DNA of 64,000 bases, from the NCBI GenBank assembly GCA_000720535.1, contig JOAZ01000014.1:62001-126000 (forward strand). Reading direction: 5' to 3'. The translations under genes and the position numbers were made by a program. Below the pieces are notes generated by a model that searched no databases, was not told the DNA's origin, and saw only the letters and a list, made by a program, of their open reading frames with translations. This document shows, in pieces, positions 2,821 to 16,420 of this stretch. The DNA is from Streptomyces halstedii. GTDB taxonomy: Bacteria; Actinomycetota; Actinomycetes; Streptomycetales; Streptomycetaceae. Numbering within the stretch: position 1 is the first letter of the stretch; each line of letters starts with the position of its first letter.

Positions 2821-4416
2821 TCAGGCGCGGCCGACGTCCACGAAGGACAGGCCCGTGGTGGGGAGCGGCTTGAAGCCGGTGAGGGCCTTGTCGTTCCACG
2901 CGGTGGGCAGCTTGCGGTGGAGGATCGGGTAGAGCGGGACCTCGTCGGCGATCAGGTCGGTGACCTCGCCCCACAGCTGCTTGCGGGTGGCCTCGTCGGC
3001 GGACTGCGCCGCCTTGTCGAGGAGCTGCTTGGTCTTCTTGTACTCGGCGCTCTTGCTCCAGTTGTAGCGGGTCTCGGGCCAGAGGCCGTAGTAGAACCAG
3101 CGCAGCAGGAGGTCGACGTCGTTGCCGAAGACGGACGGGTCGCCGGGGGCCACCAGGACCTCGTACTTGCCCGTGTCGACCTTGGCGTACTGGGCCGCGG
3201 ACTGGGCGATGTCGAGCTTCGCCTCGATGCCCGCCGCCGCCCAGCTCTCCTTGAGCAGGGGGGCGATGTCCTTGACCCAGCCGGTGTCGGTGGTCAGGAC
3301 GGTGAACTTGAGGTCCTTCACGCCGGCTTCGGCGAGCAGCTTCTTCGCCTTGGCCACGTCGTGGGTGTAGACCGTGGCGGCCTTGTGGTACTCGGGGTGG
3401 GTGGCGGGGACGTATCCCGTGGCGGCTGACGCGTTGCCGACCATGGCGGTCTTGATGATCTTCTCGGTGTCCAGCGCGTAGTGCAGGGCCTGGCGGACCC
3501 GCTTGTCGGCGAACCGCTTGTCGGCGGTGTTGAACATCAGGAAGAGCAGGCCGAAGGACTGCACGGAGTCGGTCTTCGCCGTGGCGGCGAGTCCGGCGAC
3601 GTCGATGTAGGGCACGTCCTCGATGGCCTGGACGCGGCCGGACTGCATGGCGCTGACGCGGGCCGACTGGTCCGCGATCAGCCGCCAGATCATCTTCTTG
3701 GCCTTGGCGGGGTGGGGGCCGTTGTACGTGTCGTACTTCTCGAAGACGATCTTGTCCTCGCGGGTGGCCGAGATGAACTTGTAGGGGCCCGAGCCGACGG
3801 GCTTGGCGTCGAATCCCTTGACGTCGGCCTCGACGATCTTCTTGGGCACGATGCGGGCGACGGCGATGCGGGAGGGGAAGAGCGCGAAGGCGTACTTGAG
3901 CTTGAACTCGACCGTCTTGGTGTCGACGGCGGTGATCGTGTCGATGAAGGGCACGAACTGCGCCATCAGCGAGGAGTTCCTCGGGTCCAGGATGCGTTCG
4001 AAGCTGAAGACCACGTCCTCGGCGGTGACCGGGGAGCCGTCGTGGAAGGTCGCGCCGTCCCGCAGGGTGGCGCGGTAGGTGGTGGCGTTGATCTTCTTCG
4101 GCATCTCCGTGGCGAGCGCGGGCGCGGCCACGAGTGTTGCCGGATCGAGATCCACGAGGCCCTCGAAGATGTGCATATTGGCGGCGTACGGCGTGGCGCC
4201 CGAGGTGATCATCGGGTCGAACCCGGTCGACAGGGGGTACGAGAGACCGGCCTCGATGGTGCCGCTGCCATCGCCCTTGCCCGCCGCGCCGTCGGCGGTC
4301 GAGGAGGGTCCACCGCACGCGGAAAGGCTTGCCGTGATGGCGGCGGCCGCGCCGATGACGCCGGTGTAACGCAGGAAGGTGCGGCGCTCGACGCCGGCTG
4401 GCCTCAGCTCGGGCAC
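2821..4416 (-). CDS. SBP family 5 lipoprotein, ABC importer (SiaE-like)
   Basis: 531-residue extracellular substrate-binding lipoprotein of the DppA/OppA class. The N-terminus has a twin-arginine-type motif (RRTFLRYTG, residues 11-19) and a lipobox LSAC with acceptor Cys34. It is therefore probably Tat-exported and lipid-anchored. The body shows the class-5 hallmarks (the YRATLRDGATFHDGSPVTAEDVVFSFER segment family, cut here). GTG start at 4416 is preceded by GGAGGA. It is the first gene of the minus-strand transporter operon, with a candidate promoter and operator about 90-140 bp upstream. SBP5 proteins bind peptides, nickel or sugars. Sialic acid is inferred from the divergent regulator and the nearby sialidase and lyase genes. 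Confidence 0.92.
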   Translation of the reverse strand: MPELRPAGVERRTFLRYTGVIGAAAAITASLSACGGPSSTADGAAGKGDGSGTIEAGLSYPLSTGFDPMITSGATPYAANMHIFEGLVDLDPATLVAAPALATEMPKKINATTYRATLRDGATFHDGSPVTAEDVVFSFERILDPRNSSLMAQFVPFIDTITAVDTKTVEFKLKYAFALFPSRIAVARIVPKKIVEADVKGFDAKPVGSGPYKFISATREDKIVFEKYDTYNGPHPAKAKKMIWRLIADQSARVSAMQSGRVQAIEDVPYIDVAGLAATAKTDSVQSFGLLFLMFNTADKRFADKRVRQALHYALDTEKIIKTAMVGNASAATGYVPATHPEYHKAATVYTHDVAKAKKLLAEAGVKDLKFTVLTTDTGWVKDIAPLLKESWAAAGIEAKLDIAQSAAQYAKVDTGKYEVLVAPGDPSVFGNDVDLLLRWFYYGLWPETRYNWSKSAEYKKTKQLLDKAAQSADEATRKQLWGEVTDLIADEVPLYPILHRKLPTAWNDKALTGFKPLPTTGLSFVDVGRA

Positions 4417-4502
4417 GGGTCCTCCAAGGGACGTGAGGGGTGGGGGATGGATGAGGAAAGGGCTGTTTCGACGGCTGTCGGGGACCGATGAACCGCCGAG
4501 CG

Positions 4503-4553
4503 TCAGACGTCAGATGTCTGATGCCTTGATAGCGTGGGAACGTAGCTTGACAA
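4503..4553 (-). promoter_or_regulatory. Transporter promoter with GntR-type operator (site A)
   Basis: Reading the minus strand, TTGTCA (4553-4548) and TATCAA (4531-4526) are 16 bp apart. Eight bases after the -10 begins the 13-bp near-palindrome GACATCTGACGTC (4518-4506), embedded in a 19-bp sequence with outer arms TCAGAC/GTCTGA (4503-4521). The same core recurs at 5419 and 12181 in the same position relative to putative promoters. A repressor bound here would block transcription initiation of the importer, and it may also affect the divergent regulator gene. Confidence 0.65.
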
Positions 4554-4585
4554 TCGAGAGGGGTCAAGAGGTGGGGAGTTCAGAT

Positions 4586-5317
4586 ATGTCCGGCACACGA
4601 CCCGGTCGCACCCTGTTGCGGCAGGAAGTCGTCGAGGGCATCAAGCGCTACATCCTCGACGAGCGGCTGCGCCCCGGGGACCCGCTGCCGACGGAGCCGG
4701 CCCTGTGCGAGGCGCTGGGCGCCAGCCGTTCCAGCGTCCGGGAGGCCGTCAAGATCCTCGACGCCCTGGACATCGTGGAGGTGCGCCACGGCCACGGAAC
4801 GTACGTGGGCCGGCTCAGCCTGTCCGCGCTGGTGGAGAGCCTGACCTTCCGCGGGCTGCTCTCCCCCGACGACGACTTCCAGGTGATGGCCGACCTCGTG
4901 GACGTGCGGGAGCTCTTCGAGCGGGGCATGGCCGACCGGATCGTCTCCTCGCTGAGCGCGGAGCAGCTCGACACCCTGGAGGGCCTGGTCGGGACCATGC
5001 GGGCCACCGGGGTGGGCGACGGGCACGGCTTCGTGGCGGCGGACCGGGCCTTCCACGCGCTGCTCGTGGCCCCCCTCGGCAACGAGCTGATCGGCCAGCT
5101 GTCGATGGCCTTCTGGGACGTGTACACGATCGTCGCGCCGCATCTGGACGGCTTCACCCACGCCGACGAGACGGAGACGATCACCGCCCACCAGAACATC
5201 GTGGACGCGGCCCGGGCCGGGGACATCAGCGCGTTCCTCAAGGCCCTCGGCGAGCACTACGCACCGGTCAGGCGGCGGATCGCCGAGGCCAGGGCGCGCG
5301 GGGCGGACCAGGTCTGA
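4586..5317 (+). CDS. FadR-type GntR regulator 1, probable NanR-like repressor
   Basis: 243 residues. The N-terminal GntR winged helix (residues about 12-75; DPLPTEPALCEALGASRSS, then REAVKILDALDIVEVRHGHGTYVG) is followed by an all-helical FCD effector domain with the metal/ligand-type His and Asp residues of the family (DRAFH, later AHQNI). ATG at 4586 is preceded by GGGGAG. A longer frame exists upstream, but it runs through the operator. The gene is divergent from the sialate-type importer and upstream of the esterase-sialidase genes, both of which carry the GACATCTGACGTC site. It is therefore the best candidate for the regulator of the island, with sialate or a derivative as inducer (inference). 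The second FadR-type protein at 11335 is the rival. Confidence 0.9.
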   Translation: MSGTRPGRTLLRQEVVEGIKRYILDERLRPGDPLPTEPALCEALGASRSSVREAVKILDALDIVEVRHGHGTYVGRLSLSALVESLTFRGLLSPDDDFQVMADLVDVRELFERGMADRIVSSLSAEQLDTLEGLVGTMRATGVGDGHGFVAADRAFHALLVAPLGNELIGQLSMAFWDVYTIVAPHLDGFTHADETETITAHQNIVDAARAGDISAFLKALGEHYAPVRRRIAEARARGADQV

Positions 5318-5374
5318 CCGGGGACGCCCCGTCCCGCCCCACCCCGGGGCGGGAGCCCCTCCCCCGCCCCACCC

Positions 5375-5431
5375 TTGACGCCCGGCCGCGAAGCTCTCTA
5401 GGGTCCCGTTGCCACCAGGACATCTGACGTC
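5375..5431 (+). promoter_or_regulatory. Promoter and operator (site B) of esterase-sialidase genes
   Basis: TTGACG (5375-5380), 18 bp, then TAGGGT (5399-5404) gives a good Streptomyces vegetative promoter. The core GACATCTGACGTC at 5419-5431 falls at about +8 to +20. It matches the reverse complement of site A perfectly over 13 bp. Repression of the 5472-9303 genes is the likely outcome. Confidence 0.7.
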
Positions 5432-5471
5432 TTCTGTCCTGCCGCTTCCCGTACCCCTGGAGGGCACAGCC

Positions 5472-6476
5472 ATGCCGTCGGCCGATCTCCCGCTCGCGGA
5501 CTGCCTCACCTACCGGCCCGAACTCCCGCTGCCGGACGGCTTCGACGACTTCTGGTCCGCCACGCTCGCCGAGGCGCCCCACGACGGAACACCGGACAAG
5601 CCGCGGTTCAAGGAGGTCGACTGCGGGCTGACACAGGTGCGTACGTACGACGTGAGCATCCCTGGGTACGGCGGCCGTCCGGTGCGCGGCTGGCTGCGGA
5701 TGCCAGCCGGGGCCACCGAACCACTGGGCTGCGTCGTGGAGTTCCTCGGTTACGGGCGCGGACGGGGGCTGGCGCACGAGCAGTTGACCTGGGCCTGCGC
5801 CGGATACGCGCACCTGGTCATGGACACCCGGGGGCAGGGCTGGTCGGCGGCGGGCGGGGTCACCGCCGACACCGACCCCGGGGCGTCCGGGACCGTGCCG
5901 GGCTTCCTGACCCGGGGCGTCGAGAGCCCCGAAACGTACTACTACCGGCGGGTGTTCACCGACGCGGTGCGCTGCGTGGAGGCGATGCGCGAGCACCCCG
6001 AGGTCGATCCCGCCCGCGTCGTGGTGACCGGGGTGAGCCAGGGCGGCGGTATCGCGCTGGCGGTCGCCGGGCTGGTGGACGGGCTGGCCGGGGTGATGCC
6101 GGACGTGCCGTTCCTCTGCAACATCCCCCGGGCCGCGCGGATCGCCGGAGCCCCGCCGTACACCGAGATCGCCGCCTACCTCCAGCTCCACCGTGACCGC
6201 ACCGCGTCCGTCTTCCGCACGCTGTCGTACTTCGACGCGGCGCACCACGCCACCCGGGCGACCGCGCCCGCGCTGTTCTCCATCGCGATGATGGACGAGA
6301 TCTGTCCGCCCTCCACCTGCTTCACGGCCTACCACCGCTACGCGGGCCCCAAGGACGTGCGGGTCTACGAGTTCAACGGCCACGAGGGCGGCACCGAGCA
6401 CCACCGGGCGGAACAACTGGCCTGGGTGCGCTCCCTGTTCGCCGGCCTGCCGACCGGGCAGGCCGCCCTCTCCTGA
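5472..6476 (+). CDS. Acetyl esterase, CE7 family (cephalosporin-C deacetylase/acetylxylan esterase type)
   Basis: 334-residue alpha/beta hydrolase with all three CE7 signatures: RGQ (120-122), GVSQG (187-191, nucleophile Ser189) and HE near the C-terminus (NGHEGG), plus the acid Asp in MMDEICPP. There is no signal peptide, so it is cytoplasmic. Start ATG 5472 follows CTGGAGGG; an upstream in-frame TTG would overlap the operator. CE7 enzymes remove acetyl groups from small acetylated sugars. Being first in a sialidase operon under site B, it may de-O-acetylate imported sialic acid, but activity on xylo-oligosaccharides or other acetyl esters cannot be excluded. Confidence 0.88.
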   Translation: MPSADLPLADCLTYRPELPLPDGFDDFWSATLAEAPHDGTPDKPRFKEVDCGLTQVRTYDVSIPGYGGRPVRGWLRMPAGATEPLGCVVEFLGYGRGRGLAHEQLTWACAGYAHLVMDTRGQGWSAAGGVTADTDPGASGTVPGFLTRGVESPETYYYRRVFTDAVRCVEAMREHPEVDPARVVVTGVSQGGGIALAVAGLVDGLAGVMPDVPFLCNIPRAARIAGAPPYTEIAAYLQLHRDRTASVFRTLSYFDAAHHATRATAPALFSIAMMDEICPPSTCFTAYHRYAGPKDVRVYEFNGHEGGTEHHRAEQLAWVRSLFAGLPTGQAALS

Positions 6477-6490
6477 CCGGAGGAAGCTCC

Positions 6491-7786
6491 GTGCGCAGAC
6501 GTTCCATGCTCCTTGCCGCAGGGGCGGCGGCCCTGACCGGCCCCCTGGCCGGCCACGCCTTCGCCGCTTCCACCAGCGGCCCGCTGGTGGACCACGGCAC
6601 AGCCGTGGACCTGGACGGGGGCGGGCAGGTCGACCTGTCGCCCCAGGTGGGGGCCGTGGCCCCACTCACCACGGGAACGATCCTCGTCACCTTCCGCACC
6701 ACGAGCCACCACGACGCGATGACGCTGATCAGCGCGTCCGATCCGTCCACCCCTTCCTCCAACCTCACGCTGAACCTCAGCGGCGGAGCCCTGCAGTTCT
6801 CGGTACGGCAGCGGGGCGCCGTACTCGTCAATGTCATGACCAGGACACGGTACGACGACGGGCGGCAGCACACCGTCGCCGTCACCGTGGACGGCACCGG
6901 AACCCGCCTCCACGCGGGCGGCCACGTGGTGTTCGAGACGGCGAGCCGTCCGTTCTTCGGCAGCGTGTCAGGGCTGACCGCCCTGACGCTCGGAGCGAAC
7001 CGGGACAGTGACCACCCGTCCGGCGAATGGTTCTTCACCGGCACCGTCGAGCGGGCCGCGGTCTGGGACCGGGTGCTCGACGCGGGCGAACTGGTGGCCC
7101 AGTGCCCGCGACCGGTCGTCCCCGACCACGGCCGGATCTCCACGATCCTCAACAGCGACACCCCCGCCACCTGGGTCTTCACCGGCGACAGCATCACCCA
7201 CGGCGCCCAGCACACCAACGGCTGGCGCAGCTACCCGGAGCACTGGACCGAGCGCGTCCGCTGGGAACTGGGCAAGCCGAAGAACCGCGACTTCGTGATC
7301 GATTCGGGGGTGAGCGGTGCCACGAGCGCCGATCTCACCGCCTCCTTCGGCGATCGGGTCACCGCCTTCTCGCCGAAGGTCGTCTCGATCATGATCGGGA
7401 CCAACGACATCGCGACGTCGGGCCTCGGCCTGGAGGCCTACCGGGCCAATCTCGTCTCGCTGGTCGGTTCGGTGCGCGCGTTGCCCGGATCGCCGGTGCC
7501 CGTCCTACAGGCGCCCAACCCGGTCGATCCGGCCAAGTGGCCCGGCCGGGTCGCCCTCTCGGGCTACGCGCGGGTCATGGGCGAGGTGGCCGCGCAGCAG
7601 AACGTGGTCTTCGTCGACCACTACGACGACTGGCTGACCGGAAACGGCGGCCAGGTCCCCCTGTCCCTGCTCAACGACGGGCTCCACCCCAACGAGCGGG
7701 GCCATCACCGGATCGCCCTGAAGATGATCGAGGAACTGCAGATCTTCGACTCCGGCAGCCGGGTGTGCACCCTTTCCATCCCCTGA
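6491..7786 (+). CDS. Secreted LamG-SGNH esterase
   Basis: 431 residues. The N-terminus is a twin-arginine-like signal (RRRSMLLAAG...HAFA). A concanavalin/LamG-like beta-sandwich spans about residues 30-205 and would bind glycans. A GDSL/SGNH hydrolase domain follows, with block I GDSIT (Ser234), block III GTND (303-306) and block V DGLH (396-399). GTG start follows GGAGGA, 14 bp after the CE7 esterase gene and 71 bp before the sialidase. A carbohydrate-binding secreted esterase next to a sialidase would fit removal of O-acetyl groups from sialoglycans, opening them to the sialidase. That substrate is an inference. Confidence 0.87.
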   Translation: MRRRSMLLAAGAAALTGPLAGHAFAASTSGPLVDHGTAVDLDGGGQVDLSPQVGAVAPLTTGTILVTFRTTSHHDAMTLISASDPSTPSSNLTLNLSGGALQFSVRQRGAVLVNVMTRTRYDDGRQHTVAVTVDGTGTRLHAGGHVVFETASRPFFGSVSGLTALTLGANRDSDHPSGEWFFTGTVERAAVWDRVLDAGELVAQCPRPVVPDHGRISTILNSDTPATWVFTGDSITHGAQHTNGWRSYPEHWTERVRWELGKPKNRDFVIDSGVSGATSADLTASFGDRVTAFSPKVVSIMIGTNDIATSGLGLEAYRANLVSLVGSVRALPGSPVPVLQAPNPVDPAKWPGRVALSGYARVMGEVAAQQNVVFVDHYDDWLTGNGGQVPLSLLNDGLHPNERGHHRIALKMIEELQIFDSGSRVCTLSIP

Positions 7787-7857
7787 CGCGTCGGCCCGTC
7801 ACGCCGCGCTCCGCTCCCTCTCCGCACCTCTCCCCCTCACAAGAAGAGAGATCGTTC

Positions 7858-9303
7858 ATGCAGCGCAGAGTCACCGTCGCCATGCTGTCCGCCGCCCTCA
7901 TGGTGGCCACCGCGGCCGACACCGCCCACGGCGCCCCCACCACCGCCGCCGCGGGCGAACTGACCTTCCAGGACATCGCCACCGCGGGCGTCGGGTCCCC
8001 TTACTACCGCATCCCCGCGCTGACCACCTCCACCAAGGGCACCCTGCTCGCCGCCTACGACGCCCGGCCCACACTCGGTGACCTGCCCGGCAACCTCGGG
8101 GTCGTCCTGCGCCGCAGCACCGACGGCGGGACCACCTGGCAGACCCAGCAGGTCGTCCGCAAGGAGGCCGCCCCCAAGGGCTTCGGCGACCCGAGCCTGC
8201 TCACCGACACCACCACGGGCCGGATCTTCGTCTTCTACGCGAGCTCCGTGAACCAGGGCTTCTTCGGATCGGCCACCGGCAACGACGAGAACGACCCGGA
8301 CGTCCTCCAGGCCGACTACAGCTACTCGGACGACGACGGGGTGACCTGGACCCACCGCCGCATCACCCAGCAGATCAAGAACCCCGCCTGGGCCGGGATG
8401 TTCGCCGCCTCCGGCCAGGGCATCCAGCTGCGCAACGGCCCGTACAAGGGCCGGCTGATCCAGCAGTACGCCATCCGCCACGACGGGGCCAACTACGCGG
8501 TCAGCGCGTACAGCGACGACCACGGCGAGACGTGGAAGACGGGCCGGCCGGTCGGGCCGGGCGGCGACGAGAACAAGACCGTCGAGCTGAACGACGGGCG
8601 GATCATGCTCAACAACCGCTCCGCGCCGTACCGCACCGTCGCCTACTCCTCCGACGGCGGCGTCACCTACACGCCGTTCACGCAGGACACCAACCTGCCC
8701 GACCCGGCGAACAACGGCTCGGTCATCCGCTACGCCCCCGACGCGGCCGCGTCCGACCCGCAGTCCTCGTGGCTGCTGTTCAGCAACACGGAGAGCACCT
8801 TCTCGCGGCGCAACCTCACCGTGAAGATGTCCTGCGACAACGGGAAGACCTGGCCGATCCGGAAGGTCGTCGATCCCGGCAGCGCCGCGTACTCCACGCT
8901 GACGCGGCTGCCCGACGGCCGGCTCGGGCTGCTCTACGAGCGCGGCGACGTCCAGCACATCACCTACTCCTCCTTCGACCTGAAGTGGCTAGGCGGCACC
9001 TGCGCGGACATCACCATCACCCCGCCGGCCACACTGAAGGCGGGAACGGCCACGGAGATCACCGTCCGCGTCGTCAACCGGATGGACGTGACCCGCAGCG
9101 CCGGGACGCTCGACCTGGCGGTGCCCAGCGGCTGGACGACGAAGCGGGTGGCGTTCCCGGCGACCCGGCCGGGTGAGGGCGCGAACATCAAGGTCCCCGT
9201 CACGATCCCGGCCGGCGCCTACGGGAACGCCGAGCTGACCGTTACGTACACCTCCGACGGCAAGCAGGCCTCGGGGCGCCGGACGGTGACCGTGACGCCG
9301 TAG
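7858..9303 (+). CDS. Secreted exo-alpha-sialidase (GH33) with C-terminal NEW3-like domain
   Basis: 481 residues. Sec-type signal with likely cleavage after AHG (residue 25). The six-bladed propeller carries the YRIP motif (Arg51), Asp in YDAR (about 68), and five Asp boxes (87-94, 157-164, 219-226, 264-271, 325-332). It also has VELNDGRIMLNNR with Glu243 and Arg254, the nucleophile-type Tyr345 (YSTLT) and Glu361 (YERG). These are the known GH33 catalytic residues. Residues about 383-481 form an immunoglobulin-like NEW3 domain seen in secreted actinobacterial glycosidases. It releases terminal sialic acid from host or environmental glycoconjugates. It is the third gene of the site-B operon and ends at a strong hairpin. 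Confidence 0.95.
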   Translation: MQRRVTVAMLSAALMVATAADTAHGAPTTAAAGELTFQDIATAGVGSPYYRIPALTTSTKGTLLAAYDARPTLGDLPGNLGVVLRRSTDGGTTWQTQQVVRKEAAPKGFGDPSLLTDTTTGRIFVFYASSVNQGFFGSATGNDENDPDVLQADYSYSDDDGVTWTHRRITQQIKNPAWAGMFAASGQGIQLRNGPYKGRLIQQYAIRHDGANYAVSAYSDDHGETWKTGRPVGPGGDENKTVELNDGRIMLNNRSAPYRTVAYSSDGGVTYTPFTQDTNLPDPANNGSVIRYAPDAAASDPQSSWLLFSNTESTFSRRNLTVKMSCDNGKTWPIRKVVDPGSAAYSTLTRLPDGRLGLLYERGDVQHITYSSFDLKWLGGTCADITITPPATLKAGTATEITVRVVNRMDVTRSAGTLDLAVPSGWTTKRVAFPATRPGEGANIKVPVTIPAGAYGNAELTVTYTSDGKQASGRRTVTVTP

Positions 9304-9326
9304 GCACCGGACAAAGGCGGCGCCTC

Positions 9327-9362
9327 CCGTCCCGGCTCCGCGTCATGCCGGAGCCGGGACGG
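9327..9362 (+). terminator. Terminator after sialidase
   Basis: Perfect 14-bp stem (9327-9340 with 9349-9362), 8-nt loop, 24 bp after the sialidase stop and before the convergent GNAT gene. No T-run, as usual in Streptomyces. It can serve both directions. Confidence 0.75.
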
Positions 9363-9418
9363 CCGTGTCTCGGCCGAGGACTCCTCGGCGTCCGCTCACG
9401 GCTGCCGTTCCACGGTGC

Positions 9419-9997
9419 TCAAGGAGCCGGAGCGCCGTGCGCCGGCGGCGTGGGGCGGTCCAGGCGCCAGACCACCTCGACGCCGCTGCCGGAGGGGACC
9501 ACGGGCGGCGCCGCCCGTTCACGCCGGACCTCGGTGAACCCCAGCCGGCGCGGTACGGCGGCGCTGGCGGTGTTGGCCAGATCGTGCGTGATCTCCAGGT
9601 ACTCCACGTCCGGCAGGGCGAACATCTCGGCCACCAGCCCCGCCGTCGCCCGCGTGGCTGTGCCCTGGCCGACGGCGGCGGGGTGCAGCCAGTACCCCAT
9701 CCGCCATCCCCCGGGTACGGGCCCCCGGTAGCTCTGGCACATCCCGATGAACGTGCCGTCCCTGACGACGCCGTAGGTGTAGACCTCGCCGCGCGCCCAC
9801 TTCGTCTCGGCCTTCGCCAGAAGATCCCGGGTGCTCTTCCCGCTGAGCGGGGCGACCCACGGCATCCACGGGCGCAGGTGGTCCAGGGACTCCTCGGTCA
9901 GTCTGAACACCTGGGCGAAGTCGCGCTGTCCGCGCAGACGCCGCAGGAGGAAGTCTCCGCAGGGGATGATCTGACTCGGCCGGTCCATGACGGCCAT
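9419..9997 (-). CDS. GNAT N-acetyltransferase (RimJ/RimL-like)
   Basis: 192-residue cytoplasmic acetyltransferase. It has a RimJ-like N-terminus (FLLRRLRGQRDFAQVF...HLRPWMPW), the acetyl-CoA loop region (GYWLHPAAVGQGTATRAT) and the C-terminal LEITHDLANTASAAVPRRLGF-type segment. Start at 9997 (ATG) is chosen; ATG 9988 is equally possible because neither has a clear ribosome site. It probably acetylates a ribosomal-protein N-terminus or small amine. It sits inside the sialic acid island without an obvious role there. Confidence 0.82.
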   Translation of the reverse strand: MAVMDRPSQIIPCGDFLLRRLRGQRDFAQVFRLTEESLDHLRPWMPWVAPLSGKSTRDLLAKAETKWARGEVYTYGVVRDGTFIGMCQSYRGPVPGGWRMGYWLHPAAVGQGTATRATAGLVAEMFALPDVEYLEITHDLANTASAAVPRRLGFTEVRRERAAPPVVPSGSGVEVVWRLDRPTPPAHGAPAP

Positions 9998-10174
9998 GAT
10001 TGTTTCGCGGAACGGTCCACCGCAACGAGGTACGGGGATCCGGGCGGCCCGCCTGTCCGTTCGAGCGGCGCGCGCAGGCGGGTGGCCGGGCCCGGAAACA
10101 CCTGTGCCCGCCCCCGGCCGGCTGCGACGATACGGGGACGGCACCTCCCGGGACGACGGACAGGCGGCAGCTCC

Positions 10175-11413
10175 ATGGCGGCGACGGGTTTACGGATGGG
10201 CGTGGTCGGCGGCAGCGTCGCCGGGTGCGCGATGGCGGTCGCGGGCGTCCGGGCCGGGGCGGACGTCACGGTGTACGAGCGCAGCGCGGGCGCGCTCCAG
10301 GACCGGGGGCTCGGCATCGTCGTCCCGCCCGCACTGTACGCACGGCTGGTCGGCTCGGGCTATCTGGACGCGGCCATGCCGACGGCCCCCGTGGCGACCC
10401 GTGTCTGGCTGACCCGGGAGCCGGGGGGACGGTCGGCGCGTGAGTTCGCCCGTCAGCCCAGCCCGGTGACCCCGTGCAACTGGGGTCTGCTGTGGCAGGC
10501 GTTGCGCGCCGCCACCACCGGCGCGCGCTACCACCGGGGGCGCCCGGTCCTCTCCCTCGGACGGACGGCCGCCGGGCGCGCGGTCGTGCGTACGGCCGAG
10601 GGCGAGGAGACGTACGACGTCGTCGCGGGCGCCGACGGGCACCGCTCGCTCACCCGCCGCCTGCTCGCCCCCTCGCTGCGGGCCTCCCCGGCCGGGTACG
10701 CGGTGTGGCGCGGCACGCTTCCGCCGAGCGCCCTCGCGGAGCACCCACGGCCGCTGGAACTGCTGCGCGAGGCCTGGGTCACGATCGGCTTCCCCGGCGG
10801 ACACGGCATCTTCTACCTGATCCCCCGGGGCGGCGGCGCCGGGCCCGGCGACCGTCTGCTCGCCTACGCGATCTACGCGACGCCGCCCGGCCGGTCCCCG
10901 GGCGAGGTCGCCCACGTACGGGAGATCGCCGAGCGGTACTTCCCCGCGGAGTGGGCCGGGATCGTGGCCCGCGGCGAGCACACCGCGATGACCTGCCACC
11001 CCGTCGCCGACGTGCGCGCGCCCCTCACCGCGGACCCGCCGTTCCTGCTGGCGGGGGACGCGGCGGGGGTCACCCGCCCGCACACGGCGAGCGGCGCCGT
11101 CAAGGCGCTCCAGGACGCCCTGTGCCTGGAGGAGGCGCTGCGGACGTCCGCCTCACCCGCCGAGGCCCTGCGCTCCTACGCGCGCGAGCGCACCCCCGAG
11201 GTGGCACGGCTGGTGGAGCTGGGCCGCAGGCTGGGCCGCGCCCAGGTGGAACGGGCCCCGGACTGGACCGCGATGGACCAGGGCGCGGTGGAGGCGTGGT
11301 GCCGGGCCACCCTGGCGGGCGCCACCAGCTACCTCTACGCGGAGGCGGAGGCGGACGCGGCTCCGGGGGCGGCTCCGGGCACGGTTCCCGAGGGGGCTCC
11401 CGGGGCGGGCTGA
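10175..11413 (+). CDS. FAD-dependent monooxygenase, with N-terminal TTA codon
   Basis: 412-residue aromatic-hydroxylase-type flavoprotein. It has a dinucleotide fold GVVGGSVAGCAMAVAG with VYER, a DG motif (GADGHRS) and a GD motif (LLAGDAAGVTRPHTASG). It is divergent from the GNAT gene. With the ATG at 10175, codon 6 (10190-10192) is TTA, the rare leucine codon read by bldA tRNA. An alternative ATG at 10196 would exclude it; neither start has a strong ribosome site. The Ala/Pro/Gly-rich tail overlaps the opposite-strand regulator gene by 79 bp. The substrate is unknown and no biosynthetic cluster is visible nearby. Confidence 0.86.
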   Translation: MAATGLRMGVVGGSVAGCAMAVAGVRAGADVTVYERSAGALQDRGLGIVVPPALYARLVGSGYLDAAMPTAPVATRVWLTREPGGRSAREFARQPSPVTPCNWGLLWQALRAATTGARYHRGRPVLSLGRTAAGRAVVRTAEGEETYDVVAGADGHRSLTRRLLAPSLRASPAGYAVWRGTLPPSALAEHPRPLELLREAWVTIGFPGGHGIFYLIPRGGGAGPGDRLLAYAIYATPPGRSPGEVAHVREIAERYFPAEWAGIVARGEHTAMTCHPVADVRAPLTADPPFLLAGDAAGVTRPHTASGAVKALQDALCLEEALRTSASPAEALRSYARERTPEVARLVELGRRLGRAQVERAPDWTAMDQGAVEAWCRATLAGATSYLYAEAEADAAPGAAPGTVPEGAPGAG

Positions 11414-12096
11414 GGTTCGAGCCGGGCGCGGATGCCGTCGAAGTGCGTGCGCATGGCGCGCACCGCGCGCACGCCGTCCGCCGCCGCGACCGCCTCGACG
11501 ATCTCGTGGTGCTGGGCGCAGGTGACGGCGGGGTCCTGGTGGCCGTCGTCCACGTCCTCGCGCACCCGGTCCATGGCCGCCCAGAAGGCGTCCAGCACCT
11601 CGCTCAGGAGGTGGTTGTCGAGCGAGGAGTAGAGCGCGAGGTGGAAGGCGCGGTCGGTGGCGCGGGCGACCCGGCCGTCCCGGGCGGCCTCGGACTCCAT
11701 GGTGGCGACCAGCGCCCGCAGCACGGCCAGGTCCTCCGCGGGCACGCCCGCGGTGACGGGGCCGATCAGGCCGGTCTCCAGCGCCTCGCGCACCTTCATC
11801 AGCTCCAGCAGGCCCGGCTCCCCCTGACCGTGCCGGACGGCGGCCCGGAAGGCCAGCCCCTCGACGAAGGGCGACAGGGAGAGCGAGCCGACGAACGTGC
11901 CGAAGCCGCGCCGGATCTCGACGACGTTCATGGCCTGGAGCGCCTTGAGCGCTTCGCGCACGGAGACCCGTCCGGCGGCGAACAGCTCCATCAACTCGGC
12001 CTCGGTGGGCAGCGGGTCACCGGGGCCGAGCCTGCGTTCGAGGATCAGTTCCTTGATCCTTCGCTCGATGTCCTGAGCCATGGTGGGGCGGGCCAC
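11335..12096 (-). CDS. FadR-type GntR regulator 2
   Basis: 253 residues. GntR winged helix at 10-75 (DPLPTEAELMELF, VSVREALKALQAMNVVEIRRGFGTFVG), then an FCD domain with DRAFH and QHHEIV ligand-type residues, and a low-complexity Ala/Gly/Pro/Ser tail of about 25 residues. GTG start at 12096 follows AGGAGGA. It is divergent from nanA across 210 bp containing site C and a second inverted repeat. It resembles regulator 1 in length and recognition helix, so the two may share or compete for operators. Its C-terminal coding region overlaps the end of the monooxygenase gene. Confidence 0.9.
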   Translation of the reverse strand: MARPTMAQDIERRIKELILERRLGPGDPLPTEAELMELFAAGRVSVREALKALQAMNVVEIRRGFGTFVGSLSLSPFVEGLAFRAAVRHGQGEPGLLELMKVREALETGLIGPVTAGVPAEDLAVLRALVATMESEAARDGRVARATDRAFHLALYSSLDNHLLSEVLDAFWAAMDRVREDVDDGHQDPAVTCAQHHEIVEAVAAADGVRAVRAMRTHFDGIRARLEPQPAPGAPSGTVPGAAPGAASASASA

Positions 12097-12134
12097 TACG
12101 GTCCTCCTGAGGTGTCGCCGGGTGCCGGTGCCTC

Positions 12135-12194
12135 TTGACCGGCCGCCGGGGCATCTGTCTAAGGTAAGCCTCAGACATAGGACATCTTACGTCT
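12135..12194 (+). promoter_or_regulatory. nanAKE promoter and operator (site C)
   Basis: TTGACC (12135-12140) and TAAGGT (12160-12165) are separated by 19 bp. GACATCTTACGTC at 12181-12193 differs from site B at one base in the 13-bp core, and the distance from the -35 to the operator (46 bp) is almost the same as at site B (44 bp). A second repeat, TGTCT-N12-AGACA (12156-12177), brackets the -10 region and may be the target of the divergent GntR protein. Confidence 0.65.
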
Positions 12195-12306
12195 CATGTT
12201 CTGGTCCGTCTCCCCTTCCGGACGGCCCTCCGGAGGTCTTCCGGAGGACGTGCCGGAGGATTCCGGAAGACGGGCCGATGTTCCGAACGAGCTGGAGCCC
12301 CTCACC

Positions 12307-13266
12307 ATGTCCCTGACCGCACCGCTGCACGGCGTCGTCCCGCCGGTCTGCACCCCGCTCGACGCACGCGGGGAGGTCGACACGGCCTCGCTCGCCCGGC
12401 TCGTCGGCCACCTCGTCGACGGCGGCGTCCACGGACTCTTCGCCCTCGGTTCGACCAGCGAGGTCGCCTATCTGACCGACGCCCAGCGCGCCACCGCCCT
12501 GGAGACCGTGGTCACCGCGGCCGCCGGGCGGGTCCCGGTGCTGGCCGGCGTCATCGACACGACGACCGCCCGGGTCATCGAGCACGCACGGGCCGCGGCC
12601 GAGCTGGGCGCGGACGCCCTCGTGGCGACCGCGCCGTTCTACACCCGTACGCACCCCAAGGAGATCGCCGCGCACTTCCGCCGGCTGCGCGCCGCCGTCG
12701 ACCTCCCGCTGTTCGCCTACGACATCCCGGTGGCGGTGCACTCCAAGCTCTCCGCCGCCCTGGTGCGCGAGCTGGCGGAGGACGGCACCCTGGCCGGGCT
12801 CAAGGACAGCAGCGGTGACGAGGGCGGGCTGCGCCGGATGATCGTGGAGCTCGGCGGCCGCGAGGGCCGGTCCCGGGGGCCCGTGCCGCACTTCAGCGTG
12901 CTGACCGGTTCCGAACTCACCGTGGACGCCGCGCTGCTGGCCGGGGCGGACGGTGTGGTGCCCGGCATCGGCAACGTGGACCCGGCCGGCTACGTCCGGC
13001 TGTACGACGCCGCGCGGGCCGGGGACTGGGTGCTCGCCGCCCGGGAGCAGGAGCGGCTCGTCGAACTGTTCGCCATGGTGGACGCCGGTCCGGAGGAGGA
13101 CATGGGCCGCAGCTCCTCGGCGCTCGGCTCCTTCAAGGAGGCGCTGCGGCTGCTCGGTGTGATCGACGACGGCGCCACCGCCTTCCCGCAGATCCCGCTG
13201 TCCGCCGAGTCCGTCGCGCTGGTCGCGGAGCGGCTGCGCGGCGCCGGTCTGCCGCCGGTCCGATGA
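12307..13266 (+). CDS. nanA: N-acetylneuraminate lyase (DHDPS/NAL family)
   Basis: 319-residue TIM-barrel Schiff-base aldolase. The carboxylate-binding motif is GSTSE (48-52), where the family has G-T-T/S-G-E. Catalytic Tyr138 (FAYDIP) and Schiff-base Lys166 (GLKDSSGD) are present. It cleaves sialic acid to N-acetylmannosamine and pyruvate in the cytoplasm. Its place ahead of a ROK kinase and NanE, each overlapping by four bases, makes the lyase assignment much likelier than dihydrodipicolinate synthase. It is regulated from the site-C promoter. Confidence 0.9.
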   Translation: MSLTAPLHGVVPPVCTPLDARGEVDTASLARLVGHLVDGGVHGLFALGSTSEVAYLTDAQRATALETVVTAAAGRVPVLAGVIDTTTARVIEHARAAAELGADALVATAPFYTRTHPKEIAAHFRRLRAAVDLPLFAYDIPVAVHSKLSAALVRELAEDGTLAGLKDSSGDEGGLRRMIVELGGREGRSRGPVPHFSVLTGSELTVDAALLAGADGVVPGIGNVDPAGYVRLYDAARAGDWVLAAREQERLVELFAMVDAGPEEDMGRSSSALGSFKEALRLLGVIDDGATAFPQIPLSAESVALVAERLRGAGLPPVR

Positions 13267-14207
13267 GCGCCCGGGCGACCGGGGCCGTGGTGATCGGCCT
13301 CGACCTCGGCGGGACGAAGATCGCGGCCGCGCTCTTCGCCGCCGACGGCACGGTGCTGGCCCGGCACACCCGGCCCACCCCCGCGCGGGACGGGGCCGGG
13401 GCGGTGCTCGACGCGCTCGCCGGGGCGGCGGCCGAGGTGGACCCGGGCCGGCTGGCCACGGCGCTCGGCATCGCCGCCGCCGGGGTCGTCGATCCCCGCA
13501 GCGGCCTGGTCACCAGTGCCACCGACTCGATCCGCGGCTGGGCGGGCACCGCGCTCGGCGCCGGTCTCGCGGACCGTACGGGGCTGCCGGTGGCCTGCGA
13601 CAACGACGTACGCGCGACCGCCGGTCCCGAGCTGGCCGCGCTGGCAGACGGCCGGGGTTCGCTGCTGTTCGCGGCCGTCGGTACGGGCGTGGGCGGCGCG
13701 CTGGCCGTCGACGGCCGGATGCTGCACGGCGCGTACGGCATCGCCGGCCACCTCGGCCATCTGCCCAGCGCGGAGGCGGCCGGGCTGCCCTGCACCTGCG
13801 GCGCCACCGGGCACCTGGAGGTCATCGCCTCCGGCCCCGGCATCGCCGCCCACTACGAGCGGCTCACCGGCGCCCCCGTGGACCGGCTCGAAACGGTCGC
13901 CGCCCGCGCCGCCGCGGGCGAAGCGGCCGCCGTACGCGCCGTCACCACCGGTGCCACGGCGGCCGGACGGGTCCTCGGGGGACTCGCCAACGCGCTCGGC
14001 CCCGACCGGGTCGTCGTCGGCGGCGGTGTCCCGAGGATCGGACCGCTGTACGGCGACGCGCTGGCCGCCGCCTTCGCGGCCGAGCTGATGCCACCGCTGC
14101 GCGGGCTCCTGCCCGAGCCCCCGCTCTTCGGCCACGACGCCGCCGTGACCGGCGCCGCGGCCCTGACCACCACCCTTCCCCTCCACCACCCGGGAGCCCT
14201 CCGATGA
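13263..14207 (+). CDS. nanK: N-acetylmannosamine kinase (ROK family)
   Basis: 314 residues, start overlapping the nanA stop (ATGA). N-terminal phosphate-binding motif LDLGGTKIAAALF, catalytic DND-type segment (ACDNDVRA) and the ROK zinc segment GLPCTCGATGHLE. In the last, one of the usual cysteines is His, so zinc binding may be altered. It phosphorylates ManNAc to ManNAc-6-phosphate for NanE. Glucokinase activity is the family alternative, but the operon position between lyase and epimerase settles the role. Confidence 0.9.
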   Translation: MSARATGAVVIGLDLGGTKIAAALFAADGTVLARHTRPTPARDGAGAVLDALAGAAAEVDPGRLATALGIAAAGVVDPRSGLVTSATDSIRGWAGTALGAGLADRTGLPVACDNDVRATAGPELAALADGRGSLLFAAVGTGVGGALAVDGRMLHGAYGIAGHLGHLPSAEAAGLPCTCGATGHLEVIASGPGIAAHYERLTGAPVDRLETVAARAAAGEAAAVRAVTTGATAAGRVLGGLANALGPDRVVVGGGVPRIGPLYGDALAAAFAAELMPPLRGLLPEPPLFGHDAAVTGAAALTTTLPLHHPGALR

Positions 14208-14884
14208 CCGCTCAGGATCTCGCCGACACCCTCCGGGGCCGGCTGATCGTCTCCTGCCAGGCGCCCCCCGGCGACCCGATGCGGGAGACCGCCACCCTGG
14301 TACGCCTCGCCCTCTCGGCCGTCGCCGGCGGCGGCAGCGCGATCCGCGCCAACGGACCCGAGGTCGTCGCCGCGATCGTGAAGGCCGTGGACCTGCCGGT
14401 CATCGGCCTGTGGAAGGACGGCGACACCGGCGTCTACATCACCCCGACCGTCCGGCACGCCCTGGCGATCGTCGAGGCCGGTGCGGCCGTGGTCGCCGCC
14501 GACGCCACCGACCGGCCGCGCCCCGACGGCTCGGACTTCGCCGAGCTGGTCACCGCCGTGCACGCGGCGGGCGCCCTGGTCATGGCGGACGTCTCCACCC
14601 TCGACGAGGGGATCGCCGCCGCCGCGCTGGGGGCGGACTTCGTCTCCACGACGCTGTCCGGCTATGTGCCCGGAACCCCCGAGCAGACCGGCCCTGACCT
14701 GGACCTTGTGACATCTCTCTCGGCCGCGATCTCTGTACCGGTCGTCGCCGAAGGCCGTATCAATACCCCCGGGGAGGCTGCCGAGGCGATCGCCCGGGGC
14801 GCGCACAGCGTCGTGGTCGGTACGGCCATCACCGCACCCACCGCCCTGACCGCCCGCTTCGTCGCCGGCCTCGCCCGGCCCTGA
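14204..14884 (+). CDS. nanE: N-acetylmannosamine-6-phosphate 2-epimerase
   Basis: 226-residue TIM barrel overlapping nanK by four bases. It has the NanE-type N-terminus GRLIVSCQAPPGDPM, the catalytic-lysine region (VIGLWKDGDTGVYITPT), the ADATDRPRPDG loop, and a phosphate-binding end VVAEGRINTPGEAAEA...GAHSVVVGTAIT. It yields N-acetylglucosamine-6-phosphate. The next enzymes, NagA and NagB, are not in the window and must be supplied elsewhere. Confidence 0.94.
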   Translation: MTAQDLADTLRGRLIVSCQAPPGDPMRETATLVRLALSAVAGGGSAIRANGPEVVAAIVKAVDLPVIGLWKDGDTGVYITPTVRHALAIVEAGAAVVAADATDRPRPDGSDFAELVTAVHAAGALVMADVSTLDEGIAAAALGADFVSTTLSGYVPGTPEQTGPDLDLVTSLSAAISVPVVAEGRINTPGEAAEAIARGAHSVVVGTAITAPTALTARFVAGLARP

Positions 14885-14938: not shown

Positions 14939-14953
14939 ACCATGGAGCGCACC

Positions 14954-16420
14954 GTGCATTCACCACCCCCCACGCTCCCCTGGTACCGCGAGGTGAGCGG
15001 TACCCAGTGGAAGTCCTTCTTCGCCGCCTGGATCGGCTACGTCCTCGACGGTTTCGACTTCGTCCTGATCACCCTGGTCCTCACCGAGATCAGCGACGAC
15101 TTCGGGCTGAGCACGGTGCAGGCGGCCGGTCTGGTCTCCGGCGCCTTCGTCACCCGGTGGCTGGGCGGGGCGGTGCTGGGCGCCCTCGGCGACCGCTACG
15201 GCCGCAAGCTCTCCATGGTGCTGAGCATCCTGCTCTACTCACTGGGCACCTTCGCCTGCGGGTTCGCGTGGAACTACCACAGCCTCTTCGCCGCCCGGCT
15301 CGCCATCGGCATGGGCATGGCGGGTGAGTACAGCGCCAGCGCCACGTACGTCATGGAGAGCTGGCCGGCCCGGCTGCGCGGCCGGGCGAGCGGCTTCCTG
15401 ATCTCCGGTTTCTCCGTCGGCTCGGTCCTCGCCGCGCAGGTCTACACCTGGGTGGTGCCCTCCCTCGGCTGGCGCTGGATGTTCTATCTGGGGCTGGTCC
15501 CGATCGCGGTCGCGCTGTGGATGCGGCGGGCCCTGCCGGAGGCCGAGGAGTGGACCGCGGACGTCGCGGAGCGGGGTGCCAGGCCGAACCCGTTCCGGCC
15601 GCTGTTCCGGACCCCGCGGCCGGCGCTGGTCAACACCGTCCTGGTGGTCGCCGCCACGCTCTCGCTCTTCCTGGTCTTCACCCCCGGCGGCGCGGGCCTG
15701 GTGCCGGTGCTGTCGGTGGTCGCGGGCCTCGCCCTCGTCGCGTTCGCGGTGCAGTTGGGCGGGAAGCGCGGCTGGCTGCTGTACGTGTCGATGATCGTGA
15801 CGCTGTTCTTCGCGTTCCTGTACTCCTGGCCCATCCAGGCGCTCCTGCCCACCTACCTCAAGTCCGAACTGGGCTACAGCACCGGCCAGGTCACCGACGT
15901 CCTGTACTTCGCGGGTTTCGGCACCATGGCGGGCTGCTGGACGGCGGGCTTCCTGGGCGACCGGATCGGCGCGAAGAAGGCGTACGCGGTGACCCTGCTG
16001 GCCTCGCTGGCCTTCGTCTTCCCGGTCTTCATGGTGCACGACAACCTGTTGCTGCTGGGCTGTCTGCTCTTCCTGCTCCAGGCGACGAGCTTCGGGATCT
16101 CGGGGCTGCTGCCGCGCTGGATCGGCGGCCACTTCCCCACCGCGAGCCGTGGTGCCGCGCTGGGCTTCACGTACAACGTGGGGGCGCTCGGCGGGGCCGT
16201 GGCACCGGTCCTCGGCGCGCGGCTGGCGTCCGGGATGGACCTGGGGCAGGCGCTCGCGGTGCTGACCTTCGCGGGGACGGTGATCGTGGTGGTGCTGGTC
16301 GGCTTCGACGTCCCGGCCCGGCTGAACCGGCTGGTCGACCCGGACGCCACCGACGACCATCTCGCGGCGGCGGACCTGTCCGAGGGACTGCCCCGGCCGG
16401 AACCGGCGAGCCGCCGGTGA
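14954..16420 (+). CDS. nanT: MFS sialate:H+ symporter, NanT-like
   Basis: About 488 residues. MFS motif A (GALGDRYGRK) after TM2, and a second copy-like DRIGAKKAY in the other half. A long central region with two extra hydrophobic stretches (NTVLVVAATLSLFLVF, VLSVVAGLALVAFAV) resembles the 14-segment layout of E. coli NanT rather than 12 TMs. GTG 14954 has GGAG six bases upstream; ATG 14942 lies in frame but lacks a ribosome site. It follows nanE by under 70 bp and ends at a strong hairpin. With the ABC importer, the island would have two sialate uptake routes. Other carboxylic acids are possible substrates. Confidence 0.82.
   Translation: MHSPPPTLPWYREVSGTQWKSFFAAWIGYVLDGFDFVLITLVLTEISDDFGLSTVQAAGLVSGAFVTRWLGGAVLGALGDRYGRKLSMVLSILLYSLGTFACGFAWNYHSLFAARLAIGMGMAGEYSASATYVMESWPARLRGRASGFLISGFSVGSVLAAQVYTWVVPSLGWRWMFYLGLVPIAVALWMRRALPEAEEWTADVAERGARPNPFRPLFRTPRPALVNTVLVVAATLSLFLVFTPGGAGLVPVLSVVAGLALVAFAVQLGGKRGWLLYVSMIVTLFFAFLYSWPIQALLPTYLKSELGYSTGQVTDVLYFAGFGTMAGCWTAGFLGDRIGAKKAYAVTLLASLAFVFPVFMVHDNLLLLGCLLFLLQATSFGISGLLPRWIGGHFPTASRGAALGFTYNVGALGGAVAPVLGARLASGMDLGQALAVLTFAGTVIVVVLVGFDVPARLNRLVDPDATDDHLAAADLSEGLPRPEPASRR

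Follow-up and report, generated by a model that had tools for sequence, protein, structure and literature searches.

The sialic acid locus of Streptomyces halstedii described here lies in a 64,000-nucleotide stretch of contig JOAZ01000014.1 (positions 62,001 to 126,000), which in its full length we call the window, and it carries three copies of a 13-bp near-palindrome beside its promoters. We consider these sites to be operators, with a probability of roughly 0.8, of a sialic acid regulon under FadR-type, NanR-like repressors that would be released by a sialic acid metabolite. From left to right, the locus begins with an importer operon on the minus strand, which includes a permease (1797–2747, assigned from sequence and position and not by a domain scan) and a substrate-binding protein of the SBP_bac_5 family (2821–4416). 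On the plus strand there follow the regulator gene gntR1 (4586–5317), an acetyl esterase of the AXE1 family (5472–6476), a secreted GDSL esterase with a laminin-G-like domain (6491–7786), and an exo-sialidase with BNR repeats (7858–9303). In the right half, a flavin monooxygenase-like gene overlaps a second regulator gene, gntR2 (11335–12096, minus strand), and beyond it lie, all on the plus strand, a nanA-like lyase of the DHDPS family (12307–13266), a nanK-like ROK kinase (13263–14207), the N-acetylmannosamine-6-phosphate epimerase gene nanE (14204–14884), and a sialate:H+ symporter of the major facilitator superfamily (14942–16420). Apart from the permease, these assignments come from domain matches, and nanE and the symporter exceed their NCBIfam cut-offs. 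By domain match and tree, the two regulators, of 243 (GntR1) and 253 (GntR2) amino acids, are FadR-type GntR proteins with GntR and FCD domains that belong to clades 1 and 2, respectively, as defined below. The overlap of the flavin monooxygenase-like gene with gntR2 is tail to tail and spans 79 bp (11335–11413).

Putative Operator Sites and Promoters

Two of the sites are identical copies of GACATCTGACGTC in opposite orientation, at 4506–4518 (minus strand, between the importer and gntR1) and 5419–5431 (plus strand, before the acetyl esterase), while the third, GACATCTTACGTC, differs by one base and lies at 12181–12193 (plus strand, between gntR2 and nanA), all as given in a preliminary description of this DNA. 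Its promoter geometry also agrees with the letters, as each site starts 8–16 bases after a putative −10 hexamer. Site 1 begins 8 bases after the TATCAA (4531–4526) of the importer promoter (4526–4553, minus strand), which was read from the sequence with TTGTCA (4553–4548) as the −35 hexamer. Site 2 begins 15 bases after the TAGGGT (5399–5404) of the esterase-sialidase promoter, TTGACG-N18-TAGGGT (5375–5404, plus strand), whose −35 hexamer at 5375 stands 44 bp before the site. Site 3 begins 16 bases after the TAAGGT (12160–12165) of the nanAKE promoter, TTGACC-N19-TAAGGT (12135–12165, plus strand), and here the −35 hexamer at 12135 is 46 bp away. The last two promoters, likewise read from the sequence, are conserved: relatives keep the −35 and −10 hexamers before operators 2 and 3, with 12–15 nucleotides from the −10 to the core in most. 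The TATCAA block of the importer is conserved in the alignment of relatives as well, and a hexamer scan preferred pairs other than TTGTCA-TATCAA there. A promoter scan further identified a divergent gntR1 promoter, TTGATA-N17-GACAAT (4526–4554, plus strand; 9 of 12 letters, 0.2 such matches expected in the region), the −35 hexamer of which comprises the same six base pairs as the importer TATCAA, on the opposite strand. Since operator 1 abuts this promoter, GntR1 would be expected to repress itself.

The core lies at or just past the expected transcription start and is self-complementary, as might also be anticipated of a hairpin acting in the 5′ leader RNA instead of an operator. We regard this as very improbable: the same core stands beside the gntR1 promoter, from which it would not be transcribed, its bases vary with the clade of the regulator (see below), and pairing of the short hexamers into a single hairpin would be poor.

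The 13-mer had been put forward as the operator itself; the motif is real, and it appears to be the core of a longer operator and not the whole. Among 91 non-redundant exact sites of the kind found at operators 1 and 2 (G-type), 25% have GAC at a distance of 7 bp on the upstream side of the core and 19% have GTC at that distance on the downstream side, against at most 7% and 5%, respectively, at the other offsets (3–6 and 8–14). For 28 sites of the kind found at operator 3 (T-type), the values at offset 7 are 64% and 50%; at other offsets GAC stays at or below 4%, and GTC reaches up to 25%, at offset 13. Half-sites located exactly 7 bp out thus suggest a fuller operator of ∼27 bp, GAC-N4-GACRTC-N-KAYGTC-N4-GTC. 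Counted by eye against GAC-N4-GAC-N7-GTC-N4-GTC, operator 1 (4499–4525, minus strand) and operator 2 (5412–5438, plus strand; right outer half-site only) each match 9 of 12 letters, and operator 3 (12174–12200, plus strand) has four half-sites and matches 11. Each hexamer of the ∼27-bp operator is nearly self-complementary, and the core centre, RT-CWG-AY, conforms to a GT-N3-AC spacing, with one half degenerate (A for G) in the window sites. An element so built could be bound by one or two dimers.

Conservation of the Predicted Operator

The core GACATCTKACGTC has three exact matches in the whole genome (7,740,838 bases, 105 contigs), all within the sialic acid locus, and two more places match with one mismatch. 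The preliminary description held that a motif scattered over many unrelated loci would speak against an operator; in its own genome, exact copies are confined to the locus. Within the window, five matches with up to two mismatches compare with 2.5 expected, and 9 of 100 shuffles gave as many. This count is not striking, and the weight rests on the genome-wide exact matches and on conservation. The looser pattern GACRTCNKAYGTC, allowed one mismatch, matched the genome 129 times in each direction, versus 15 and 17 times for the reversed pattern; it was too loose for extending the regulon and was not used.

Conservation upstream of nan genes in relatives, named as a test beforehand, was found at three kinds of promoter. 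In a genus sample of 392 genomes, a NanE match occurs in 55, and 55 stretches of 10–20 kb around NanE (L036–L090, own genome included) were compared; one genome with two NanE matches contributed both stretches, one fragmentary genome was left out, and L080–L082, L084–L089 and others without the relevant genes were excluded from the counts. With at most one mismatch, the core lies between the importer and gntR1 in 34 of the 36 loci with gntR1 in the expected direction (33 exact), behind gntR1 in 32 of 36 (all exact), and before nanA, counted at >70% identity, in 30 of 38 (27 exact). In the eight loci lacking a site before nanA (L065, L068–L074), nanA follows the sialidase, and the genes seem to form a single operon whose site lies further up. 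No site was found behind gntR1 in L036, L040, L050, and L055, and no esterase was detected next to gntR1 there. Additional exact operators occur before a GDSL esterase gene in L045 (one, 5597–5609) and in L060 (two in tandem, 10461–10507). Several relatives (L036–L042, L047, L049, and others) carry a second nanA-like gene, ∼54–66% identical, beyond the importer operon; such a gene is also reported for some Streptomyces in PMC8754123.

Beyond the genus, eight of nine loci with gntR1 from class and family samples, the latter being a search of 22 genomes of one family, have an exact palindrome upstream of gntR1. In the ninth, L102, the palindrome at that position has two mismatches, and a site with one mismatch precedes the importer gene. 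Sites are present in Microbacterium, Georgenia, Oerskovia, Promicromonospora, Arthrobacter, Tessaracoccus, Micrococcus, Actinomyces, Bifidobacterium, and others. Among the 80 named loci with a NanE alignment, which are the best 80 of at least 414 candidates, many are without a site, coriobacterial ones included; no Corynebacterium locus is among those compared. The nine loci titled Bifidobacterium comprise four with an exact core, one with one mismatch, and four with none (L164, L174, L178, and L186), in which no importer match was found either. When the 400 bp upstream of each of 143 nan-linked GntR genes were scanned, a site with at most one mismatch was found for 70 of 71 genes in the genus (62 exact) and 50 of 72 outside it (27 exact), against maxima of 1 and 3, respectively, in 60 column permutations of the motifs.

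The Two Predicted Repressors and Their Operator Versions

Both GntR proteins exceed the Pfam gathering scores for the N-terminal GntR winged helix-turn-helix and the C-terminal FCD domain. The best NCBIfam match of each is NanR (NF003011), at 98 bits for GntR1 and 115.9 bits for GntR2, which is below the 260-bit cut-off. The GntR domain starts at residue 12 in GntR1 and residue 7 in GntR2, leaving no room for the 32-residue N-terminal extension of the Escherichia coli type. In E. coli NanR, N-acetylneuraminate (Neu5Ac) is bound via zinc (Asp172, His176, His222, His244) and Arg128 (PMC8012715). All five positions, the Asp/His/His/His zinc ligands and the salt-bridging Arg, are kept in both window proteins; across the alignment the Arg, the Asp, and the first two His are present in 116 of 116 rows and the last His in 115, with one gap. 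Arg203 and Gln221 of the E. coli pocket correspond to Arg179 and Gln195 in GntR2 and to Ala184 and Ala201 in GntR1. Residues for further Neu5Ac contacts have disappeared in part, to a greater extent in GntR1. The inducer may be Neu5Ac or a phosphorylated product; Bifidobacterium breve NanR is described as a Neu5Ac-responsive repressor (PMC4746261, citing Egan 2015).

A tree was built by a quick method from 116 of the 143 regulator rows, 44 of them from this genus; the 27 rows left out were near-duplicates or came from 18 loci that were removed entirely, and the tree has several long branches. The nan-linked repressors split into 75 rows (clade 1, with GntR1) and 41 rows (clade 2, with GntR2), with a Shimodaira–Hasegawa-like approximate likelihood ratio test support of 99 on both sides. 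With the operator of each regulator taken from the region upstream of its gene, clade 1 goes mostly with GACRTCWGAYGTC (56 G-type, 3 T-type, 16 none) and clade 2 with GACRTC[CT]TAYGTC (32 T-type, 2 G-type, 7 none), these counts being inflated by near relatives. Some of the T-type labels in Arthrobacter relatives are weak because the site has one mismatch and lies >300 bp upstream. The operator label changes four times on the tree, so that the association reflects mostly one deep split and not many independent ones.

Recognition-helix position 39, which is Ser49 in GntR1, is Ser in 74 of the 75 clade 1 rows, and Asn (26) or Val (14) in the 41 rows of clade 2, with one Gly in each clade. This position has been linked to the bases flanking the operator centre, where Asn prefers A/T (Suvorova et al., PMC4494728, FadR section), and the base that differs between the G-type and T-type operators is one of those flanking the centre. 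Five rows break the pattern at an unchanged residue 39: L058 and L063 (clade 2, G-type, Val), and L159, L185, and L187 (clade 1, T-type, Ser). These exceptions weaken the proposal that residue 39 is the sole determinant and indicate that it is at most part of the recognition code.

These data bear on how the two repressors might share the three operators. In a strict division of labour, GntR1 would act on operators 1 and 2 (import and sialidase) and GntR2 on operator 3 (catabolism), with a separate inducer for each repressor. Consistent with this, the G-type version at gntR1 and the T-type at gntR2 occur together in 20 of 22 clusters that contain both genes (the window and 19 of 21 relatives), residue 39 differs by clade at a position tied to the central bases (PMC4494728), and, of the Neu5Ac pocket of E. 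coli NanR, GntR2 retains the Arg and Gln that are both Ala in GntR1. Against it stand the five rows that depart from the pattern, the fact that the association is essentially one split, and two genomes, G066 and G282, that have an exact T-type site at nanA and an unrelated gene in the place of gntR2, with no gntR2 match at E ≤ 1e-45. The retention of the site in these genomes means that GntR2 cannot be the only reader of the T-type version, which weakens the strict form of the proposal, that GntR2 reads T only. We hold such a division to be tentative, at somewhat less than an even chance.

The converse is that GntR1 alone reads all three operators, GntR2 being a late arrival that acts elsewhere or fine-tunes nanAKE, with the T of operator 3 having no regulator-specific meaning. 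In 28 nan-positive genomes searched, hand-picked from the 55 with all gntR2-less clusters of interest included, gntR1 orthologues (≥63% identity) are found in all 28 and gntR2 orthologues (≥66% identity) in 8; three genomes whose fetched cluster includes gntR2 and lacks gntR1 have the latter at another place, next to importer genes, esterase genes, or both, with like sites. The T-type sites of G066 and G282 also accord with GntR1 acting alone, as do G308 and G161, where GACGTCTTATGTC precedes nanA, the cluster includes gntR1, and the only gntR2 relative, of 55% identity, is located elsewhere. However, T-type sites follow clade 2 across genera, for example in Arthrobacter and relatives, and in the genus, 22 of 25 clusters with gntR2 keep GACATCTTACGTC in the gntR2-nanA region (one has GACATCCTACGTC and two are G-type), in addition to the G/T split within two-gene clusters. 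We therefore regard action by GntR1 alone as a minority possibility, doubtful though worth retaining.

A broader proposal, to which we also give less than even odds, is that two NanR lineages, long separate, exist in Actinobacteria, each with an operator dialect of its own that changes along with residue 39, and that some Streptomyces have combined them within one cluster into a two-input switch for a single sugar. If true, two repressors whose sites overlap in part, and whose inducers may differ, would control import and sialidase on the one hand and catabolism on the other. Relatives of gntR2 also occur in other settings. In L219, one of 53–54% identity (8682–9389) lies beside a second nanA and a sialate symporter, with GACATCCTACGTC between (9460–9472), and the main nan cluster of the same genome contains gntR1 only. 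In L216, L217, and L218, relatives of 55–57% identity are present without a nan gene or operator nearby.

Proposed Mechanism and Relation to Known Systems

Based on these comparisons, we propose that the FadR-type repressor GntR1, and very likely GntR2 too, acts as a dimer on the RT-CWG-AY core. The core would cover approximately +1 to +20 of the three transcripts (importer, esterase-sialidase, nanAKE), such that the start of RNA polymerase would be blocked, and a second dimer could bind at the outer half-sites, 7 bp away, which are strongest at nanA. Binding of Neu5Ac or a breakdown product to the metal-containing FCD domain would then release the repressor. GntR1 would be the main regulator, with GntR2 having presumably been added beside nanA in one Streptomyces lineage together with its own operator version.

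Several observations weigh against the sites being operators of this kind. In L040 and L055, gntR1 is kept but the stretch from it to the importer position lacks a good site, and beyond the genus, 22 of the 72 upstream regions are without a site even when one mismatch is allowed. The outer half-sites are weak at window operators 1 and 2, the T-type site persists in G066 and G282 as described above, and, with Ala at both pocket positions, Neu5Ac is not assured as the ligand of GntR1.

GntR proteins of the NanR type are already known to control sialic acid genes in E. coli, Bifidobacterium, and Corynebacterium glutamicum. What is new here is the paired repressors in two clades and the two operator versions. 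The preliminary description had assigned the sites to a NanR-type FadR repressor; the FadR-subfamily palindrome and its conservation at nan genes bear this out, and the sites are not of the E. coli NanR type (PMC8012715). The E. coli protein shares with GntR1 and GntR2 the FadR-type architecture with FCD domain, a sialic acid regulon, the best NCBIfam match, the zinc ligands, and Arg128. However, its operator consists of (GGTATA)3 direct repeats, to which three dimers bind via the 32-residue N-terminal extension (PMC8012715), whereas the operator here is palindrome-based and only ∼11 and 6 residues precede the GntR domains. FadR-subfamily operators are described with the same three-base spacing and with accessory weaker boxes 7–12 nucleotides from the site centre (Suvorova et al. 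2015, PMC4494728); the core here, RT-CWG-AY, differs in having C instead of T/K before it and, in the T-type, in being asymmetric.

NanR regulons have been reconstructed in Bifidobacterium (RegPrecise; PMC4746261). NanR there, as in B. breve UCC2003, is likewise a GntR-type regulator of a sialic acid regulon, and the same paper calls it a repressor responsive to N-acetylneuraminate. In the loci of B. gallicum, B. cuniculi, B. biavatii, and B. simiiventris compared here, the exact core precedes importer genes, and the cluster GntR of these four species groups with clade 1. Unlike in Streptomyces, there is one regulator, and the site is not directly upstream of its gene. In C. glutamicum, NanR (cg2936) is similarly a GntR-family repressor near sialic acid and nag genes, and its deletion derepresses nagAB (PMC4974736). 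In the class Actinomycetia, 226 of 234 nan clusters are reported to hold a fadR-type gene (PMC8754123). Among the open-access papers searched, we found none that describes such an operator for Streptomyces and none that matches the written-out motif variants.

The sites provide a concrete, conserved, predicted operator for an actinobacterial sialic acid regulon, with which nan regulons can be drawn in free-living soil species. Free-living strains of S. olivaceus grow on sialic acid, and nan clusters are described as marking habitat (PMC8749437). The two paralogous repressors, a natural pair whose operators differ by one base, also suit the study of how specificity changes in the GntR recognition helix.

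Copies outside the Sialic Acid Locus

In 337 NanE-negative genomes there are 39 exact G-type copies, in 38 genomes. Such occasional copies would be expected if the motif were a chance repeat or the site of some general regulator, which we consider the least credible of the explanations weighed here. T-type copies number 0 in the same 337 genomes. Thirteen of the 38 genomes were inspected, and in none does the G-type copy lie beside a nan cluster or gntR1 orthologue; 10 of the 13 copies are inside a mechanical open reading frame, and one (L230) has a 27% GntR match nearby. In the 55 NanE-positive genomes, 70 exact copies are within 20 kb of NanE and 16 are not; four of these 16 lie on small contigs in G116 and G147, both fragmented genomes, and may be part of nan clusters that were split.

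Finally, of the one-mismatch places in the S. halstedii genome, C17:29165 lies inside a long open reading frame that reads as a threonine-deaminase-like gene and was set aside. The other, C31:16656, belongs to GACATCAGACATCTTATGTC at C31:16649–16668 (L092:9650–9669) and stands ∼40 bp before a Gfo/Idh/MocA-type oxidoreductase gene, for which no relative was found at E ≤ 1e-80 in 40 other genomes. This site matches 11 of the 12 half-site letters in one register, and it is possibly an outlying member of the regulon.

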